NCBI GenBank assembly: GCA_009785215.1
Contig: WQWU01000023.1
Coordinates: 1-37,562 of the forward strand
From: Treponema sp.
GTDB lineage: Bacteria > Spirochaetota > Spirochaetia > Treponematales > Breznakiellaceae
Length of the DNA stretch: 37,562 nt
Reading direction: 5' to 3'
Positions within the stretch are counted from its first letter, which is position 1; every line of letters starts with the position of its first letter. Below are positions 15,529-34,466 of this stretch, piece by piece. The notes beneath the pieces are model-generated. The model was not told the DNA's origin. It saw only the letters and a program-made list of their open reading frames with translations, and searched no databases. A program made the translations under genes and the position numbers.

Positions 15529-15538
15529 GAAAAGACCT

Positions 15539-15591
15539 CTCGCAGAGACGCGGAGGCGTAACATTCCTATGGAATGTAGAGAACGCAGAGG
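15539..15591 (+). repeat. Solo arm of the CTCGCAGAG element, with internal palindrome
   Basis: Starts with the family's left end (AAAGACCTCTCGCAGAGACG from 15532) and ends GAACGCAGAGG. It carries a 20-nt palindrome, TAACATTCC-TAT-GGAATGTA (15559-15578). No opposite arm is present. It lies between jag and the next start codon. Confidence 0.75.
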
Positions 15592-15610
15592 TAAGAGTAA
15601 GGTTTTGATT

Positions 15611-17494: not shown

Positions 17495-18934
17495 ATGTCG
17501 GGAAAAGAAACGGTTATTTTACTTTCCAGAATATTAACACAGGAAAGTGTCAAAGGCAATAATCAAAGATATATCGATATAATCCTGCAGGAAGAGATCC
17601 CTGTTTTATGCATAAATCATGAATCTCAGAAGAAAAGGCTTATGCCTTTTAAGGTTCTATTTGATAATCACGAGGATTTCTGGCATAAAAAGGGAAGCTG
17701 GGCTTATTATTTTACCGGCGAAGGTTATAAAAAGCTAAAAGGTAAATTGTTTCTAAAGCAAAATAACTTTGAAAAACCCGAACCCTCTCCGGAAGAAAAA
17801 AAAGAAAATGAAATTATCGAAAAACACGGAGTCGAAGTAGGGTACGGCAGTGAATATCAGACTTTCGCTGAAATGCCCAATGAAAAAAAGATTGAATGGC
17901 TTAACAATGATAAAAAGCGCCTTAACGATATTCTTTCGCAGAAATATAAAAACGACGCCGAAGTTACAGAAGCCCTTGTAGAAACAACAAAAGATGCCGC
18001 ATATATTAACCATGCTACTCTGGAAGAAGCGCTTTTTCTTGCAGATGACGAAGCAAAAAAACTGACACAGGATCTTGTAGATACAACACATGATATGATA
18101 AGGGCATCCGCTTTGCTTATATCAGAAAATATTTTCAGCAATGAATTGATGAATACGCTTGTAGAAAAATCCAATGGTACGATTATCCAGCATATGACGC
18201 GCGTATATCTTAACGGAATAGCTTTTCTTTCCTATTATAACAATCTTGTTTCTACATCCAGCGCTATTCAAAAATTGCGCATTAAATTTGCATCGGAATA
18301 CCGTAAATTTTATCATGAACTTCTTCCTCATTTAGATATAGATGATGTTGTTCTGGAACGTGTTTTCTACGGCGGAATGAGAGCTATTCCTACAGACCTA
18401 TATTTTAAGTGGGCTGTCGGGTTTTTAATTCATGATATTGGCAAGGCAGGCGCCGTTGAGTATCACGAAGGTGAAGCAAGTTATGATCGCAAAATAGTTA
18501 TAGATCATGTTAAGCAGGGTTATAAATCGATTATGACCAAAACAAATTATCCTATGGAAGCAAGTTTGATAACCGGGTATCATCATGAATATTACGGCGA
18601 TGCCGATGGTTATGGATATTTCCGCGCTTATCTTGCACAGTATAAAAAACAAAATCCGGATGCAAAACAGGATTATTGCATAACATACGAACTGGAACCA
18701 ATTTTAGACTATCAGGCTATGGCTTATTTTCCTGCAAAAGTGCTGGAAATTATCGATATATATGACAGTGTTACAGACCCTCACCGAGTTTACCGTAAAT
18801 CCATGACACCGGAAGAAGCTCTTACCATGATGAAAGAACAATTTGTTGTTAAACACCATAAAATAGATTCTATTCTTTTTGACATCTTTGCAATGTACAT
18901 AAGAGAAAAAGAAAAAGTAAACAAGAAACGCTAG
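17495..18934 (+). CDS. HD-GYP-like phosphodiesterase domain protein
   Basis: A 479-residue cytoplasmic protein. The C-terminal half has an HD domain: HDIGKAG (His313, Asp314), HHEYYGDADGYG (His363-His364) and YDSVTDPHRVYRKSMTPEEA. This last matches the usual DALTs.RpYR tail of HD-GYP c-di-GMP phosphodiesterases, so such activity is likely. The canonical GYP is altered to GYG. The N-terminal half (1-200) has no domain I can name and includes a charged stretch KPEPSPEEKKENEIIEK. c-di-GMP breakdown is inference. A mobile-element arm follows the stop by about 25 nt. Confidence 0.82.
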   Translation: MSGKETVILLSRILTQESVKGNNQRYIDIILQEEIPVLCINHESQKKRLMPFKVLFDNHEDFWHKKGSWAYYFTGEGYKKLKGKLFLKQNNFEKPEPSPEEKKENEIIEKHGVEVGYGSEYQTFAEMPNEKKIEWLNNDKKRLNDILSQKYKNDAEVTEALVETTKDAAYINHATLEEALFLADDEAKKLTQDLVDTTHDMIRASALLISENIFSNELMNTLVEKSNGTIIQHMTRVYLNGIAFLSYYNNLVSTSSAIQKLRIKFASEYRKFYHELLPHLDIDDVVLERVFYGGMRAIPTDLYFKWAVGFLIHDIGKAGAVEYHEGEASYDRKIVIDHVKQGYKSIMTKTNYPMEASLITGYHHEYYGDADGYGYFRAYLAQYKKQNPDAKQDYCITYELEPILDYQAMAYFPAKVLEIIDIYDSVTDPHRVYRKSMTPEEALTMMKEQFVVKHHKIDSILFDIFAMYIREKEKVNKKR

Positions 18935-18950
18935 TGTCCTGTAATATTTA

Positions 18951-19470
18951 TTTTTTATCTCGCAGAGACGCAGAGGCGCGGGGAACGCAGAGAAGAGGTT
19001 ATGTTTTTAATTTTATAGATCATTTACAGTCCTAATTATTCCGTCTTTCATTAATCCAGCTCCAAAATTTAAGATGTAGCCAAGTTTTGTGTTTGTTAAT
19101 TTTAAGTATGTTAGCAATTGTTTTTTGTGAGCATCAGATATTTTTTCTATGGATTTTAATTCAATAATTACTTTGCCATTTACAAACAGATCAACCCTGA
19201 AACCTTCATCAAAACGCTCGCCTTCAAACTCTATTGGAATTGACACTTGTCTTTGAACAGATAATCCTTTTTTGGATAACATCTTCATCAGTATTACTTC
19301 ATACACACTTTCAAGTAAACCAGAGCCAAGTGTTTTATGCAAATTAACAGCGGTTTCAATAATTATATCACCAATTTCATTTTCTTTCATTTTTTCATTC
19401 CTTATCTTTAATAAAAAACTTATTTTCTCCTCCGTGATCTCTGCGCCCCCGCGTCTCTGCGAGAGCTCTT
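18951..19470 (-). mobile_element. Long form of the inverted-repeat element, carrying a GxxExxY gene
   Basis: Left boundary TTTTTTATCTCGCAGAGACG with arm 18959-18993. Right arm CTCTGCGCCCCCGCGTCTCTGCGAG (19439-19463 in two pieces), followed by AGCTCTTTTC. Read on the minus strand, the element runs from the AAGAGCTCTCGC end to the GCGAGATAAAA end, the same polarity as the short asd-lysA copy. The only gene inside is the GxxExxY gene. About 520 bp. Confidence 0.6.
19013..19390 (-). CDS. GxxExxY protein, PD-(D/E)XK nuclease-like
   Basis: A 125-residue protein with the family's motif as GLLESVY (residues about 24-30) after AVNLHKTLGSG. The later part, VDLFVNGKVIIELKS, has the D...ExK arrangement of PD-(D/E)XK nucleases, and LLTYLKLTNTKLGYILNFG is the conserved C-terminal block. 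The function of the family is not settled, to my knowledge; nuclease activity is inferred from the fold. An AAGGAA ribosome site lies upstream. It fills the space between two opposed repeat arms and is the only gene there, which makes it a candidate mobility gene for the repeat. Confidence 0.85.
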   Translation of the reverse strand: MKENEIGDIIIETAVNLHKTLGSGLLESVYEVILMKMLSKKGLSVQRQVSIPIEFEGERFDEGFRVDLFVNGKVIIELKSIEKISDAHKKQLLTYLKLTNTKLGYILNFGAGLMKDGIIRTVNDL

Positions 19471-19493: not shown

Positions 19494-19517
19494 CTCTGCG
19501 CCCCTGCGCCCCGCGAG
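19494..19517 (-). repeat. Extra solo arm of the same repeat family
   Basis: CTCTGCGCCCCTGCGCCC then CGCGAG, the same orientation as the right arm of the GxxExxY element and 30 nt beyond it. It lies 40 nt from the glyA stop codon and may be the remnant of an older insertion. Confidence 0.6.
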
Positions 19518-19557
19518 AACTTTTCTCTAAAAATTCTTTTTAAAATTTCCTACGCCG

Positions 19558-21084
19558 CTATGAAACAAAGTGTTGTTTTAGGAAATCCAGGTCAAGCTCA
19601 GGATAAACAGGGAAGCGTTCCATTAATGATTTAACCCGCGCCTGAACATCGTTTTTTACGGTTTCATCTATAATGTACTTTGCCTTGCTGTTTTTAGACG
19701 GCTCATTTTTTGTTTTTGCCTGTGTTGTACCCTTAATTACTGCGGCAATAAGCTTTCCAAGTTCTTCCATTTCTTCTTTGCCCATGCCAAGCGTAGTTAC
19801 TGCGGCAGTTCCCGCTCTAATTCCTGATGTATACCAGGGGCCGTTGGGATCACGCGGCAGGCTGTTGCGGTTTAGTGTTATGTGACATTCCTGCAGTGCG
19901 CTTTCCGCCTGCCTGCCTGTAATGCCCGCTTTATGAACATTTACCAAAAGCAGATGATTGTCTGTTCCGCCTGTTAAAACTTCCAGGCCGTTTTTAATAC
20001 ATGAATCTGCAAGCGCTTTGCAGTTATCTACAACTTTTTGCGCATACTGTTTAAAATCCAACGATGCAGCTTCGCGGAAAGCGACAGCTTTTGCGGCAAT
20101 CACATGAGGAAGCGGGCCGCCCATGGTTAACGGACAGCCTTTGTCCAATGATTCTGCAAATTCTTTTGTGCTTAATACAAGCCCCGCGCGGGGGCCACGA
20201 AGCGTTTTGTGAGTTGTGCTTGTTACAACATGAGCCCACGGAACAGGATCGTATTCGCCTGTAAAAACTTTTCCCGCAACAAGACCTGCAAAGTGCGCCA
20301 TATCTACCATAAATACAGCGTTAATTTTATCGGCAATTTCTCTTAAACGTTTAAAATTAATTTTTCTTGGATATGCGGAATAACCAGTTAATAAAATTAA
20401 CGGACGTAATTCCAATGCCTGTTTTTCGATTTCGTCATAATCAAGAAGCCCGTCTTTTTCAGAAACCGAATAACTGTAAACATCAAACATATGGCTGGAA
20501 ATATTGTAGCGGTAACCGTGAGTTAAATGGCCGCCCGAATAATAATCCAATGTTAACAAACGCTGATTCCCCATAGAAGTTTTTAATTCTTTCCATTGAT
20601 CATCTGTTAAATTATATAGATTTGTCTGCCCCCATTTTTCCAATGCCGGGTTTTCTATTCTTGTATTGATAATTGCCCAGTATGCAAGAAGATTTGCATC
20701 CGAGCCGCAGTGTGTTTGCACGTTTGCATATTCAGCGCCGAAAAGTTTGCACGCTTCTTCTGCAGCCAATGTTTCTATGGCATCGACATTTTCTGTTCCG
20801 CCGTAAAACCGGTGATACGGCATACCCTCGGCATATTTGTCCGTTAAAAGGTTGCCCATTGCAAGCTGAACTGCCATGGAGCAGTAATTTTCGCTTGCAA
20901 TTAATTTTACCCGTTTACGCTGATTTTCCAGTTCCTTTACAATTGATGAAGCAATTTCAGGCGTAACTTTGGAAATTTCGGATAAACTGCAGATATAAGC
21001 CAGCAGATTTGTGTCGATTTTTTCCGGCGATGTACCGCCGTTCATGGCGGCTGAAATGTATGCCGCAACCGGGTTTGTTTTCAT
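19558..21084 (-). CDS. glyA: Serine hydroxymethyltransferase
   Basis: PLP enzyme that interconverts serine and glycine and supplies methylene-tetrahydrofolate. Seen are KLIASENYCS, YAEGMPYHRFYGG, VDMAHFAGLVAG and the PLP-lysine motif TSTTHKTLRGPRAG. It is about 508 residues, longer than the usual 415-430. Extra sequence includes an N-terminal 45 residues, an insert around 155-200 (KWGQTNLYNLTDDQWKEL) and a K/T/N-rich segment before the C-terminus. I choose the ATG at 21084 rather than the upstream TTG at 21117, because that TTG is the -35 itself. The -10 is 5 nt before the ATG, so the mRNA is probably leaderless. Confidence 0.95.
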   Translation of the reverse strand: MKTNPVAAYISAAMNGGTSPEKIDTNLLAYICSLSEISKVTPEIASSIVKELENQRKRVKLIASENYCSMAVQLAMGNLLTDKYAEGMPYHRFYGGTENVDAIETLAAEEACKLFGAEYANVQTHCGSDANLLAYWAIINTRIENPALEKWGQTNLYNLTDDQWKELKTSMGNQRLLTLDYYSGGHLTHGYRYNISSHMFDVYSYSVSEKDGLLDYDEIEKQALELRPLILLTGYSAYPRKINFKRLREIADKINAVFMVDMAHFAGLVAGKVFTGEYDPVPWAHVVTSTTHKTLRGPRAGLVLSTKEFAESLDKGCPLTMGGPLPHVIAAKAVAFREAASLDFKQYAQKVVDNCKALADSCIKNGLEVLTGGTDNHLLLVNVHKAGITGRQAESALQECHITLNRNSLPRDPNGPWYTSGIRAGTAAVTTLGMGKEEMEELGKLIAAVIKGTTQAKTKNEPSKNSKAKYIIDETVKNDVQARVKSLMERFPVYPELDLDFLKQHFVS

Positions 21085-21089
21085 AATGT

Positions 21090-21117
21090 AATATAACATT
21101 TTTATTGTATCTGTCAA
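21090..21117 (-). promoter_or_regulatory. Promoter of glyA
   Basis: TTGACA (21117-21112), 16-nt spacer, TATATT (21095-21090) with an extended TGT. The start codon follows after 5 nt. Confidence 0.75.
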
Positions 21118-26302: not shown

Positions 26303-26323
26303 TAAAAATATTTATTCTTCCCC

Positions 26324-26352
26324 TTGAAATATTTTCTAAAAAATGGTAAAAT
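26324..26352 (+). promoter_or_regulatory. Promoter of the TvpA-like leader, copy 1
   Basis: TTGAAA (26324-26329), 17-nt spacer, TAAAAT (26347-26352) with an extended TGG. An ATG follows after 6 nt (26359), opening a 16-codon frame. The intergenic stretch 26303-26637 holds this promoter, the short frame with a TC repeat, and a short-form element; nothing else is seen. Confidence 0.7.
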
Positions 26353-26358
26353 GCGGCA

Positions 26359-26409
26359 ATGAGCGGAAAACCTTACATGAATTCAAATTCTCTCTCTCTC
26401 TTATTATAG
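26359..26409 (+). CDS. Candidate leaderless mini-ORF with (TC)6, copy 1
   Basis: 16 codons: MSGKPYMNSNSLSLLL then TAG. The ATG sits 6 nt after the -10. A microsatellite (TC)6 at 26389-26400 encodes Ser-Leu repeats. The paralogous leader at 28482 keeps the same frame and stop position although it has (TC)15. Translation is unproven; it could be a leader peptide for the TvpA-like gene about 230 nt downstream. Confidence 0.4.
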   Translation: MSGKPYMNSNSLSLLL

Positions 26410-26480
26410 AAGAAACTTTGAAATATTACCCCAAAACCACTTTTCAGGGGATAAATTTGCCTATTTAATCAAGAAGACCT

Positions 26481-26606
26481 CTCGCAGAGACGTAACATTC
26501 CTTCGGAATGTAGAGGACACGGAGAGTGCAGAGTACCTTGCAACGAAGCTTCTAGCAAGATTTCTAGTTACAGCTCTGCGTACTCAGCGGCTCAGCGCCA
26601 CTGCGA
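26481..26606 (+). mobile_element. Short-form inverted-repeat element in the TvpA-like leader, with palindrome
   Basis: Left arm CTCGCAGAGACG (26481-26492), a 20-nt palindrome (26493-26512), then GAGGACACGGAGAGTGCAGAG up to 26533. Right arm 26574-26606 begins CTCTGCGTACTCAGCG and ends CTGCGAG. The loop has an imperfect hairpin around GAAGCTTC. The element ends about 30 nt before the TvpA-like ATG, next to its ribosome site. Confidence 0.65.
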
Positions 26607-26637
26607 GAAAAAATTTGTAATAATAAAGGAGAAACGT

Positions 26638-27540
26638 ATGAAAAGAATGTTATTTGGTATTTTGGTAATGGTTGGACTTGTTTTGTTAACCTGCAGTGAG
26701 CCGCCTAGCGATCCACCCAGCAATGACGGCAATAATAATAAGCCGGATTACAGAGCAATGGTGCAGATTACAGGAACAGGCACTGGATCATTTCTTATGG
26801 GCAGCCCTGTAGGAGAGGTAAACCGTAATTCTGACGAAACCCAGTGGTTGGTAAAACTAAGTAATTTTAAGATTAGTAAATACCCTGTAACACAGGAATG
26901 GTTTCAGGATGTGATGGGGTATAATCCTAGTTTTTTTGTGGGAGCAAATCTTCCTGTGGAAGAAGTAACATGGTTTGATGCGATAGAGTTTTGTAATAAG
27001 CTGAGCGAATTACAAAATCTTGAGCCAGTTTATTACATAGATGTTATAACAAGGAACTCTTTCGGGAATATAACGAATGCTACGGTGACGGAATTAAGCT
27101 GGGATAATTCCGGCTACAGGCTGCCTACAGAAGCGCAGTGGGAATATGCATGCAGAGCAGGAACAACAACACCTTTTAACTGGGGAACAAACCAGATAAC
27201 ATCAGATCAGGCTAATTTTAATGCAACAGCTTCTCTTTATAATGGAAGTCCAGTGGGGGTATACAGAGCAAGAACAACGCCTGTAGACATATTTCCTGCA
27301 AATGCATGGAGACTACATGACATGCACGGTAATGTATTTGAATGGTGCTGGGATTGGTATGGTACATATCCTACAACAGTGCAATTAGATTACAAGGGAG
27401 CTTCCTCTGGATCTGGTCGCGTGTTACGCGGCGGGGGGTATTACAACGGCGGTGGTCAGCTCCGTTCTGCCTTTCGGGTTAGAAACGCTCCGTTTGACGT
27501 GGTCAGCCGTATCGGTGGCTTTCGTGTTGTTGCCCCCTGA
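26638..27540 (+). CDS. TvpA-like lipoprotein with FGE-sulfatase/C-type-lectin fold, probable DGR target
   Basis: 300 residues. Signal peptide and lipobox LLTC (Cys19), then a P/N/D-rich spacer (20-36). Residues about 40-300 are an FGE-sulfatase (SUMF1) domain: [56 protein letters not shown] and RVLRGGG. The C-terminal end, residues 261-300, has the layout of a DGR variable region, ending IGGFRVVAP. Treponema denticola TvpA is the known precedent: a surface lipoprotein of this fold, diversified by a retroelement. An AAAGGAG site precedes the ATG. Not an active formylglycine enzyme, as far as I can see. Confidence 0.85.
   Translation: MKRMLFGILVMVGLVLLTCSEPPSDPPSNDGNNNKPDYRAMVQITGTGTGSFLMGSPVGEVNRNSDETQWLVKLSNFKISKYPVTQEWFQDVMGYNPSFFVGANLPVEEVTWFDAIEFCNKLSELQNLEPVYYIDVITRNSFGNITNATVTELSWDNSGYRLPTEAQWEYACRAGTTTPFNWGTNQITSDQANFNATASLYNGSPVGVYRARTTPVDIFPANAWRLHDMHGNVFEWCWDWYGTYPTTVQLDYKGASSGSGRVLRGGGYYNGGGQLRSAFRVRNAPFDVVSRIGGFRVVAP
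27418..27540 (+). other. Candidate DGR variable region (VR) of the TvpA-like gene
   Basis: Codons 261-300. Conserved anchors RVLRGG, LRSA and IG-GFRVVAP alternate with positions where DGR templates usually carry AAC/AAT. At these sites the codons read TAT, TAC, AAC, GGC, GGT, GGT, TTT, GTT, AAC, GCT, TTT, GAC, GTC, AGC, CGT and GGT, nearly all ending in C or T, as expected when only the adenines of AAY codons were changed. No template repeat or reverse transcriptase is in this window. Confidence 0.6.
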
Positions 27541-28402: not shown

Positions 28403-28446
28403 GAAAAAAACGGAGTACACAAAGATAGTTACTTGCTGCTTTCCTC

Positions 28447-28475
28447 TTGAAATATTTTCATAAAAATGGTAGAAT
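28447..28475 (+). promoter_or_regulatory. Promoter of the TvpA-like leader, copy 2
   Basis: TTGAAA (28447-28452), 17-nt spacer, TAGAAT (28470-28475). Same spacing as copy 1, with an ATG 6 nt after it. Confidence 0.6.
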
Positions 28476-28481
28476 GCCATA

Positions 28482-28550
<69 letters not shown>

Positions 28551-28621
28551 AAGAAACTTTAAATTATTGCCCCAAAACCACTTTTCAGGGGATAAATTTG
28601 CCCATTTAATCATGAAGAGCT

Positions 28622-28730
28622 CTCGCAGAGACGCAGAGGACACGGAGAGCGCAGAGTACCTTGCAACGAAGCTTCTAGCAAGATTTCTAGTTACAGCTCT
28701 GCGTACTCAGCGGCTCAGCGCCACTGCGAG
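28622..28730 (+). mobile_element. Short-form inverted-repeat element, copy without palindrome
   Basis: Left arm from CTCGCAGAGACG (28622-28633), right arm ending CTGCGAG at 28730. Nearly identical to 26481-26606, but where that copy has the 20-nt palindrome this one has only CA (28634-28635). Confidence 0.65.
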
Positions 28731-28753
28731 AAAAAATTTGTAATAATAAAGGA

Positions 28754-33221: not shown

Positions 33222-34334
33222 ATGGCACAAGTACAAAAAATCCCGGTTGGAATACTGGGCGCTACAGGCATGGTTGGGCAGCAGTATATCACTCTTCTCA
33301 ATGATCACCCCTGGTTCGAGGTTCGCTTTGCGGCAGCCTCTCCAAGAAGCGCAGGAAAAAAATACTCAGAAGCTGTCGCAGGAAGATGGCAGTTAACTAA
33401 AACTTATGCTCCTCATGTCGGTAATATAATGGTAGAAGATGCCAACGATGTGAGCCGTGCAGCCGCGGCATTCAAAAAAGGCGAGTGCTCGTTTGTTTTT
33501 TCTGCGCTGGAAATGGGCAAAGACGAAACCAAAGCGCTGGAAGAACAATACGCCGCAGCAGGAATCCCTGTAATCTCGAACGCATCGGCTCACCGCTGGA
33601 CAGAAGATGTTCCTGTTTTAATTGCAGAGATCAATCCCGAGCATACCGATATTATCCCCATGCAGAAAAAATCGCGCGGATGGGATCGCGGTTTTATAGC
33701 CGTTAAACCTAACTGTTCGATACAAAGTTATATGAAGCCGATTCACGCACTTGCGCAGGCCGGTTACGAAGCAAAACGAATGTTTGTTAATACGATGCAG
33801 GCAGTTTCCGGCGCAGGTTATCCCGGCGTTCCAAGTTTAGATATGATCGATAATATCGTTCCATATATTGGCGGCGAAGAAGAAAAATCAGAAAAAGAAC
33901 CATTAAAAATATTTGGTTCGATAGATGGCGGCATTTTTAAAAACGCAGAGTTCCCAAAGATTTCGGCGCACTGTAATCGAGTGCCTGTTATCGATGGGCA
34001 TACAGCTTGTATTTCGCTTGAGTTTGGTGACAAAAAGCCATCATCAATGGAAGAAATCAAAAAAATCTGGGCGGCCTACAAGGGCTTGCCTCAGGATGCA
34101 GATTTACCATTTGCGCCGAAACAGCCAATCATCTACCGCGAAGAGGATAACCGTCCTCAGCCAAGAAAGGATCGTGATACCGACAAGGCTATGGCAGTAA
34201 CAATCGGACGCCTGCGTCCATGTAATTTATTTGATATCCGCTTTGTTGCGCTTTCGCATAACACTGTTCGCGGAGCAGCCGGCGGCGGGATCTTAAACGC
34301 AGAGTTACTAAAACACAAAGGATATCTTGTGTAA
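33222..34334 (+). CDS. asd: Aspartate-semialdehyde dehydrogenase
   Basis: 370 residues; the NADPH-dependent enzyme that converts aspartyl phosphate to aspartate semialdehyde, feeding DAP/lysine, threonine and methionine. Seen are the NADP-binding GILGATGMVGQQY, the catalytic Cys in VKPNCSIQSYM, and the His of VIDGHTACISLEFG. The length and NCSIQ motif fit the archaeal/fungal-type branch of the family. An AAGGAG site precedes the ATG. It is the first gene of asd-lysA-dapL; an element copy sits between it and lysA. Confidence 0.95.
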   Translation: MAQVQKIPVGILGATGMVGQQYITLLNDHPWFEVRFAAASPRSAGKKYSEAVAGRWQLTKTYAPHVGNIMVEDANDVSRAAAAFKKGECSFVFSALEMGKDETKALEEQYAAAGIPVISNASAHRWTEDVPVLIAEINPEHTDIIPMQKKSRGWDRGFIAVKPNCSIQSYMKPIHALAQAGYEAKRMFVNTMQAVSGAGYPGVPSLDMIDNIVPYIGGEEEKSEKEPLKIFGSIDGGIFKNAEFPKISAHCNRVPVIDGHTACISLEFGDKKPSSMEEIKKIWAAYKGLPQDADLPFAPKQPIIYREEDNRPQPRKDRDTDKAMAVTIGRLRPCNLFDIRFVALSHNTVRGAAGGGILNAELLKHKGYLV

Positions 34335-34339
34335 GACCT

Positions 34340-34450
34340 CTCGCGGAGACGCGGAGATCGCGGAGATCGCGGAGAAAAGAGAAGGTTGAAGAACACTTTC
34401 TCGTTCTTTCATTCCTCTCTGCGTTCTCTGCGCCCCTGCGCCTCTGCGAG
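34340..34450 (+). mobile_element. Empty short-form inverted-repeat element between asd and lysA
   Basis: Left arm from CTCGCGGAGACG (34340-34374, with ATCGCGGAG repeated), right arm 34416-34450 ending CTCTGCGAG, then ATAAAATGGAG. It has the same two distinguishable ends as the GxxExxY element but no gene. The arms would fold into a long imperfect hairpin in the operon mRNA, ending 17 nt before the lysA ATG. Confidence 0.7.
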
Positions 34451-34466
34451 ATAAAATGGAGATTAT

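Follow-up and report, generated by a model that had tools for sequence, protein, structure and literature searches.

A GxxExxY nuclease gene between inverted arms in a Treponema contig: a candidate compact mobile element

Introduction

Is the GxxExxY gene that lies between two opposed arms in a Treponema contig part of a mobile element, and could its product be what moves it? To our knowledge, GxxExxY is a widespread named family with no known job. The stretch analysed here, which we call the window, comprises 37,562 nt of contig WQWU01000023.1 of Treponema sp. (assembly GCA_009785215.1). A preliminary description of it had proposed that the gene and its arms are the autonomous form of a dispersed element with derivatives resembling miniature inverted-repeat transposable elements (MITEs), and that a PD-(D/E)XK-type protein is the candidate enzyme.

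Our analysis indicates that the block from arm to arm is very probably a genuine mobile unit, and we favour, with less assurance, the GxxExxY protein as its mobility enzyme. With similarly moderate confidence we read the whole as a compact mobile element of ~0.45-0.65 kb with a single nuclease gene, in which the nuclease recognises its own arms and gene-less hairpins are non-autonomous derivatives. Because GxxExxY is tied here to specific DNA ends, the job of the family becomes directly testable.

The gene and its arms

The longest inverted pair among those listed for the window, 76% complementary over 55 nt, encloses a single gene, so the packaging that the preliminary description reported is confirmed. 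The product matches TIGR04256 (GxxExxY; 132.2 bits, cut-off 35) and PF13366 (PDDEXK_3; 134.9 bits, cut-off 22), and these are the only families that the sole gene between the arms matches; no HUH/Y1 transposase was found there. The core of the arms, CTCTGCGAG, occurs 13 times in the window with at most one mismatch (expected 3.3; maximum 8 in 100 shuffles). The two end sequences described earlier lie where they had been placed, to within about a base, and the gene-bearing copy has its AAGA end motif at the 19470 end.

In an alignment of 41 sequences Y30 and D67 are invariant and E27, E77, K79, Q91 and Y95 are at least 90% conserved: judging by this alignment, the PD-(D/E)XK catalytic residues are kept, in agreement with the type of enzyme first suggested. 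The fold is predicted to be a minimal Cas4/RecB-like one, from comparisons in which a fold that is missing is not thereby ruled out. A sequence search for relatives with solved structure gave only two matches (E 0.57 and 0.74), and PHROGs returned a weak ‘CRISPR/Cas system associated’ match for two of four proteins. The window gene is under very strong purifying selection, as measured by ratios of nonsynonymous to synonymous substitution (dN/dS) that exclude three of the five comparisons because their dS was saturated.

The family is present in 36 of the 98 genomes around the window and in 69 of the 145 of a Verrucomicrobiota sample. A phage-borne gene was considered and rejected: the window protein has no tblastn match in 50,697 phage records at 1e-5. 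A scan of viral contigs found one locus; it used a single peptide pattern and was therefore insensitive. Going by the portions of two reports consulted, the family extends beyond bacteria: the genome of an algal virus has a GxxExxY gene among those listed, and an expansion of PF13366 in Arctic microalgae is described (PMC12085832, PMC9756366).

Arms around other GxxExxY genes

We scored the local inverted repeats between the 300-nt flanks of each gene against 100 shuffles of the same flanks, and counted a locus as passing if it exceeded all of them. This arm test was passed by 31 of 40 GxxExxY loci around the window (26 of 35 in an earlier run), as against 6 of 195 ordinary open reading frames (ORFs) and 1 of 52 among ORFs of 100-200 amino acids (aa), the controls being drawn from 15 stretches of nine same-genus genomes and none from Verrucomicrobiota. 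The 40 leave out one locus with a short flank (L014), a fragment (L002), two loci judged by identical flanks to be the same genes as others (L032 and L033, equal to L133 and L134) and L035, which had failed the earlier arm test. The Verrucomicrobiota sample, built around a Methylacidiphilales record (G098; two of its loci and 30 others), has arms at 26 of 32 loci; one gene is in both sets (L036 of the 40 is L148 of the 32). Among six plasmid records and one viral contig, five loci passed (the viral contig, Sphingomonas, Gemmatirosa, Bernardetia and Bacteroides) and those of Fusobacteria and Prevotella failed. Packaging is thus seen in five phyla, with few cases each in Bacteroidota, Pseudomonadota and Gemmatimonadota. 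The idea that these genes are always found between arms holds for the large majority: 9 of the 40 and 6 of the 32 fail, several of them (for example L015 and L151) with arms that look degraded by eye.

Short low-complexity repeats can pair accidentally, which is what an explanation by chance or annotation artefact would invoke; we put its probability at practically nil, refuted as it already is by the shuffle and real-gene controls, by replication in other phyla and by the empty sites described next.

Empty sites in related genomes

The two convergent neighbours of the element, one of them the gene for serine hydroxymethyltransferase (SHMT), were found together at 19 of 29 other same-genus loci fetched; the remaining 10, whose stretches contained no SHMT match, were excluded from the gap comparison. 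Between the last aligned residues the window has 629 bp, and 17 of the 19 genomes have 6-101 bp; the two outlying gaps are one of 140 bp with a different hairpin and one of 1351 bp with another gene. GxxExxY was found between the two flanking genes in none of the 19 same-genus genomes, and no such arms were seen by eye in the 17 short gaps. The gene-less copies at jag|15611 and at asd|lysA likewise have empty counterparts, in the seven and the four relatives inspected, respectively; one relative carries a different MITE at the first site and one an other-class half arm at the second.

Comparable sites could be read elsewhere. In a complete genome (G092) a GxxExxY gene is flanked by two whole hairpins; in G063, flanks 88% identical to these are joined by 11 bp, leaving about 640 bp extra in G092, and in G060, whose flanks are 96% identical, about 2.8 kb of other DNA occupies the site. 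In Bacteroides finegoldii the arms start at the radA stop and finish a few bases short of the next gene; the corresponding site is a spacer of 13 nt in Parabacteroides distasonis and is taken up by a different gene in Phocaeicola massiliensis. The element of Sphingomonas parapaucimobilis lies between fabD and fabG, where S. paeninsulae has about 30 nt. Empty sites are therefore readable in three phyla, and the presence/absence polymorphism anticipated in the preliminary description exists, between species. The unit of arms and nuclease gene inserts into intergenic DNA.

The same sites bear on a homing reading, in which the hairpins owe their spread to another agent and the nuclease gene only enters hairpins already in place, which it cuts and into which it is copied. 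Gene-less arms are indeed common, also in genomes without the gene, and some genes lie between complete hairpins (L003, L036, L228). At the window's insertion site, moreover, G016 has a gene-less arm of the same class with about 2 kb of other DNA (L096 890-2958), so the site may predate the split of the two genomes as an occupied one. (The ~2 kb includes an ORF that by eye resembles a helix-turn-helix protein.) Against homing, no hairpin of this kind stands at the readable empty sites of G063, P. distasonis, S. paeninsulae or the 17 same-genus genomes; we consider it unlikely.

Arm units and protein kinship

The arms are built of 8-10-nt units, mostly CRC followed by an element-specific tetranucleotide, of which AGAG, GGAG, AAAG, GAAC, GAAG and GAAT are commonest. 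CRC with a near-identical tetranucleotide recurs at intervals of 8-11 nt in 50 of the 64 arm sets (shuffles: mean 2.5, maximum 8), and the best lag within the flanks is 8-10 nt at 24 of 35 spirochaete loci and 13 of 32 loci of the other set. The two arms of an element match each other with a median score of 35 (35 loci) and 34.5 (32 loci), compared with 15 and 16 between elements; for 16 of 35 and 18 of 32 elements the own partner is the best match of all arms. This comparison left out L014, L029-L033, L035, L036 and L136, of which L029, L030, L031 and L136 had not passed the arm test, together with 6 of 26 four-helix-bundle loci (see below). As judged by eye, AACCRC or TCTCGC stands at many of the outer ends. 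A supposition that all arms are made of CTCTGCG was rejected, many relatives carrying other units.

Do the units follow the protein? We compared arms and proteins at the loci, 64 out of 84, where the protein's own arms reach a score of at least 28. Arm similarity is correlated with protein identity (Mantel r 0.234, 0 of 2000 permutations as high): the fraction of pairs with an arm score of at least 24 is 0.0 of 457 at 25-35% identity, 0.37 of 46 at 65-80% and 0.36 of 11 above 80%. Arm classes, defined by regular expressions that we set ourselves, change 14 times on the protein tree, compared with a shuffled mean of 28.9 and with 0 of 200 shuffles as low (RRAG 7 vs 21.6, AGGAT 2 vs 5.9, GAAC 1 vs 3.9, ‘other’ 10 vs 12.2), and the AGGAT class unites spirochaete and Verrucomicrobiota rows. 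Cross-phylum homologues at least 50% identical have a median arm score of 14, with 57 of 138 at 16 or more, and same-genome paralogues less than 50% identical one of 10, with 1 of 27 at 16 or more, in a comparison of non-independent pairs not matched for identity. Several genomes (G016, G220, G130, G179) hold several GxxExxY genes each, with arms that are mostly unlike. The arms thus tend to track protein kinship, even between phyla, rather than the host genome, and arm and enzyme are inherited and diversified together.

This pattern is not what regulation or recombination alone would predict, and it counts against taking GxxExxY for a host or defence gene that is mere cargo, its arms being terminators, or substrates through which homologous recombination transfers it. 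The strong purifying selection, the weak Cas4 similarity and the sites, which lie in operon gaps and between convergent genes, would all suit such a gene; the close bounding of the insertion by the arms in Bacteroides counts against it. On this evidence we regard the cargo explanation as improbable.

Gene-less copies

A search with the single CTCTGCG pattern undercounts, since relatives carry other units, and general and type-specific patterns were used instead; all arm counts take in the arms of gene-bearing copies. In the 1.9-Mb draft genome of the window, GxxExxY is represented by a single complete gene and by a fragment at the end of a contig. The genome has 116 matches to CTCTGCGTCTCTGCG with at most two mismatches, against 37 for the reversed pattern; tandem repeats inflate this control, here and in the single-pattern and general searches too. 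A script found 16 complete elements in this genome, 4 in the window and 12 in 20 fetched stretches; the 12 are gene-less hairpins of 79-200 bp with arms paired around a variable loop, and the remaining fetched stretches hold half copies or single motifs. The asd/lysA copy (34339-34451) has a predicted single-strand fold of -60.7 kcal/mol. Short copies as first described do exist, with two amendments: the copy after jag is only half of one, lacking the second arm, and those at 26474 and 28615 share one segmental duplication and are not independent.

The AAGA motif stands at exactly one end in 13 of the 16 complete elements, at both ends in one and at neither in two, and the opposite end tends to be T-rich, and A-rich when read from the AAGA end. 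The common polarity of long and short copies that had been claimed is therefore true of the window's genome; the gene-bearing copies of relatives display no comparable fixed end polarity by eye.

Across the 98 genomes, the general arm pattern has a median of 49 matches in the 30 genomes with a full GxxExxY gene and 14 in those without (p 3e-4), and within the genus 127.5 and 20 (p 1.5e-4). Type-specific counts point in the same direction: carriers of AGGAT-type arms have 8, 60, 2 and 21 matches of that type and carriers of GAAC-type arms 25, 1, 5, 32 and 32, with a median of 0 in the others, two of the carriers (G013, G087) having been assigned by eye. Separately, contigs C106 and C152 of G050, a genome without a GxxExxY match, carry perfect tandem runs of the 8-mer CTTCGCGG.

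A parallel class with four-helix-bundle genes

Four-helix-bundle genes (TIGR02436, S23-like) of the same taxonomic order also occur between arms: 16 of 26 loci scored above all shuffles for inverted arms (L037-L042, L044-L049, L058-L060, L062), with a best lag of 7 in 15 of 20 loci examined. They apparently form a parallel element class, reminiscent, as far as the consulted parts of the sources go, of rRNA intervening sequences and of heptamer repeats (PMC4692102, PMC4990558).

This class and the A-rich end opposite AAGA are what make an RNA-level element conceivable, akin to the intervening sequences of 23S rRNA, whose hairpin transcript would be excised or reverse-copied with the protein as a nucleic-acid binding or processing helper. 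Set against the complete PD-(D/E)XK site that the GxxExxY protein keeps, and with no Rfam family match in the window, this reading appears very unlikely.

Interpretation

The picture of an autonomous element with MITE-like derivatives is supported in part, by the packaged unit, by insertion with empty sites, by the gene-less copies and by the co-variation of arm and protein. In the mechanism that we propose, the protein would bind the units of its own arms, probably in a hairpin or cruciform fold-back or in the single-stranded state during replication, and would cut at the element ends; host repair might then copy or insert the unit into intergenic DNA. Gene-less hairpins, which keep the recognised arms, could be moved in trans, by analogy with REPINs and RAYT.

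Several observations weigh against a nuclease that moves its own unit and the hairpins. Arms abundant in genomes without a detected gene, which the preliminary description had named as counter-evidence, do occur: among the 24 genomes with at least 50 general-pattern matches, 15 have the full gene and 2 a fragment, and none was detected in 7, G024 (299 matches) and G032 (127) having no GxxExxY match. GxxExxY matches are also lacking altogether in eight genomes with at least five GAAC-type matches and in five with AGGAT-type matches, and nine genomes that carry the full gene show under 20 general-pattern matches. Possible explanations for arms without a gene are draft genomes, the loss of master genes or some other mover. 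Arm and protein co-vary loosely, with some 37% of pairs scoring at least 24 even at 65% identity or more, the NNAT class is scarcely clustered on the tree (6 changes vs 7.7 shuffled), and such co-variation is equally expected from plain joint inheritance of the unit. No recent intragenomic bursts of gene-bearing copies were seen in G130, G220 and G179, where copies are mostly diverged (28-85% identical), and a target-site duplication is unreadable because the empty-site comparisons are too diverged. Under a less strict test (200-nt flanks, 50 shuffles), 6 of 51 and 17 of 139 controls in element-rich stretches pass, the latter count including four-helix-bundle genes; 2 of 33 pass in the window, GxxExxY being one of the two. 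In G042 (L137-L140), finally, several loci have adjacent GxxExxY pairs in repetitive DNA without the usual arms. This looks like a true exception to packaging, and perhaps a different use of the protein.

A fuller proposal, which we offer tentatively and think rather doubtful as a whole, is that an element whose one enzyme is a stand-alone Cas4-like nuclease, and which has no transposase, recombinase or reverse transcriptase, moves both itself and gene-less hairpins by recognising arms made of repeated units (CRC with a clade-specific tetranucleotide), that the specificities of enzyme and arm change together so that several types coexist in one genome, and that the S23-like period-7 class is a second branch. 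Should each protein bind or cut its own arms, the known routes of DNA movement would gain a mobile element that works by a nuclease alone and whose readable target units co-evolve with it. Some of the intergenic hairpin repeats of environmental genomes could also be accounted for in this way.

Features of the window

The positions of the element, its neighbours and the gene-less copies are collected in Table 1.

Table 1 Features of the window, with the evidence on which each is based.
Feature	Position	Strand	Basis
Gene-bearing element, including both outer end motifs	18953..19470	-	Arms and end motifs; insertion relative to 19 same-genus genomes
Arm 3' of the gene; made of CTCTGCG units, outer flank T-rich	18958..19012	.	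Inverted-repeat listing
Arm on the 5' side of the gene; outer AAGAGC motif up to 19470	19410..19464	.	Inverted-repeat listing; end-motif script
GxxExxY protein gene, 125 aa, PD-(D/E)XK nuclease (by profile and alignment)	19013..19390	-	Profile matches; alignment of 41 sequences
Additional half arm between element and SHMT gene	about 19494..19519	.	By eye and pattern match
Left flanking gene, used in empty-site comparison	17495..18934	+	
Right flanking gene, SHMT, used in empty-site comparison	19558..21117	-	
Gene-less half copy after jag stop codon, small hairpin nested inside	15532..15600	+	Absent from 7 relatives inspected
Gene-less hairpin copy, small hairpin nested inside	26474..26608	+	Inverted repeats; complete-element script
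Gene-less hairpin copy in segmental duplicate of 26389-26630	28615..28731	+	Inverted repeats; complete-element script
Gene-less hairpin copy between asd and lysA	34333..34456	+	Absent from 4 relatives inspected

Small hairpins (TAACATTCCTNNGGAATGTAGAG and others) are nested within arms at 15558-15580 and 26493-26515, and also in L126 and L114; one such insert distinguishes the copy at 26480 from its duplicate at 28621. The segmental duplication itself (26318-26630 and 28441-28753) is followed by FGE-sulfatase-like genes at 26638 and 28769, with the second gene copy shortened, a CT run of different length and a PIN-domain gene in between. At 18932-18948, TAGTGTCCTGT resembles one end of a different miniature element family; a copy of this type with both ends lies in the jag|duf gap of L101, the gap at which the window has a half arm copy. 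In G092 (2245000-2264900, L212), eight copies of a hairpin are found in the spaces between paralogous genes arranged in tandem, each of about 400-460 aa; the hairpins were set aside as evidence of mobility because they sit in a paralogous gene array.

Comparison with known systems

In its predicted fold the protein may resemble Cas4/RecB nucleases and Hjc resolvases, and it has their D-ExK-QxxxY active-site pattern. Cas4 has four cysteines for an Fe-S cluster; the window protein, about 125 aa long, has no cysteine and hence no such cluster.

Small genes inside long hairpins are also found in the intervening sequences of 23S rRNA that carry an S23 ORF. The elements described here differ in lying between protein genes, as the flanks of the window element do, and in carrying a nuclease. 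The heptamer repeats of Xanthomonas and Nostoc are also short tandem units, in Xanthomonas often in paired inverted sites, but have a period of 7 rather than units of 8-10 nt; according to the parts of that report consulted they were generally not found associated with mobile elements by its authors, and its main text contains no occurrence of S23, four helix or nuclease (PMC4692102).

Bacterial MITEs are likewise short, intergenic, inverted-ended and gene-less, and two gene-less copies in the window share these features, with the same inverted ends and with sites that are empty in relatives; the difference is that the gene-bearing form here has no recognised transposase. REPINs are thought to be moved in trans by RAYT. 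The likeness to that system, going by the sections consulted, lies in dispersed gene-less hairpins of paired short motifs and a gene tied to the same motifs (PMC3116915, PMC8266576), and the window gene is similarly flanked by inverted motifs that are also dispersed in the genome. The enzyme differs, being a predicted PD-(D/E)XK nuclease and not an HUH/Y1 transposase, and so do the arms, which are runs of 8-10-nt units that mostly differ between same-genome paralogues. Among the matches listed, we found no paper linking GxxExxY to such arms in the open-licence literature searched (no bioRxiv and few subscription journals), in keeping with the earlier suggestion that the link would be new: a gene-bearing form with gene-less hairpins is the known pattern of REPIN/RAYT and of insertion sequences with their MITEs, and what is not described in that literature is the enzyme family together with unit arms that track the protein.
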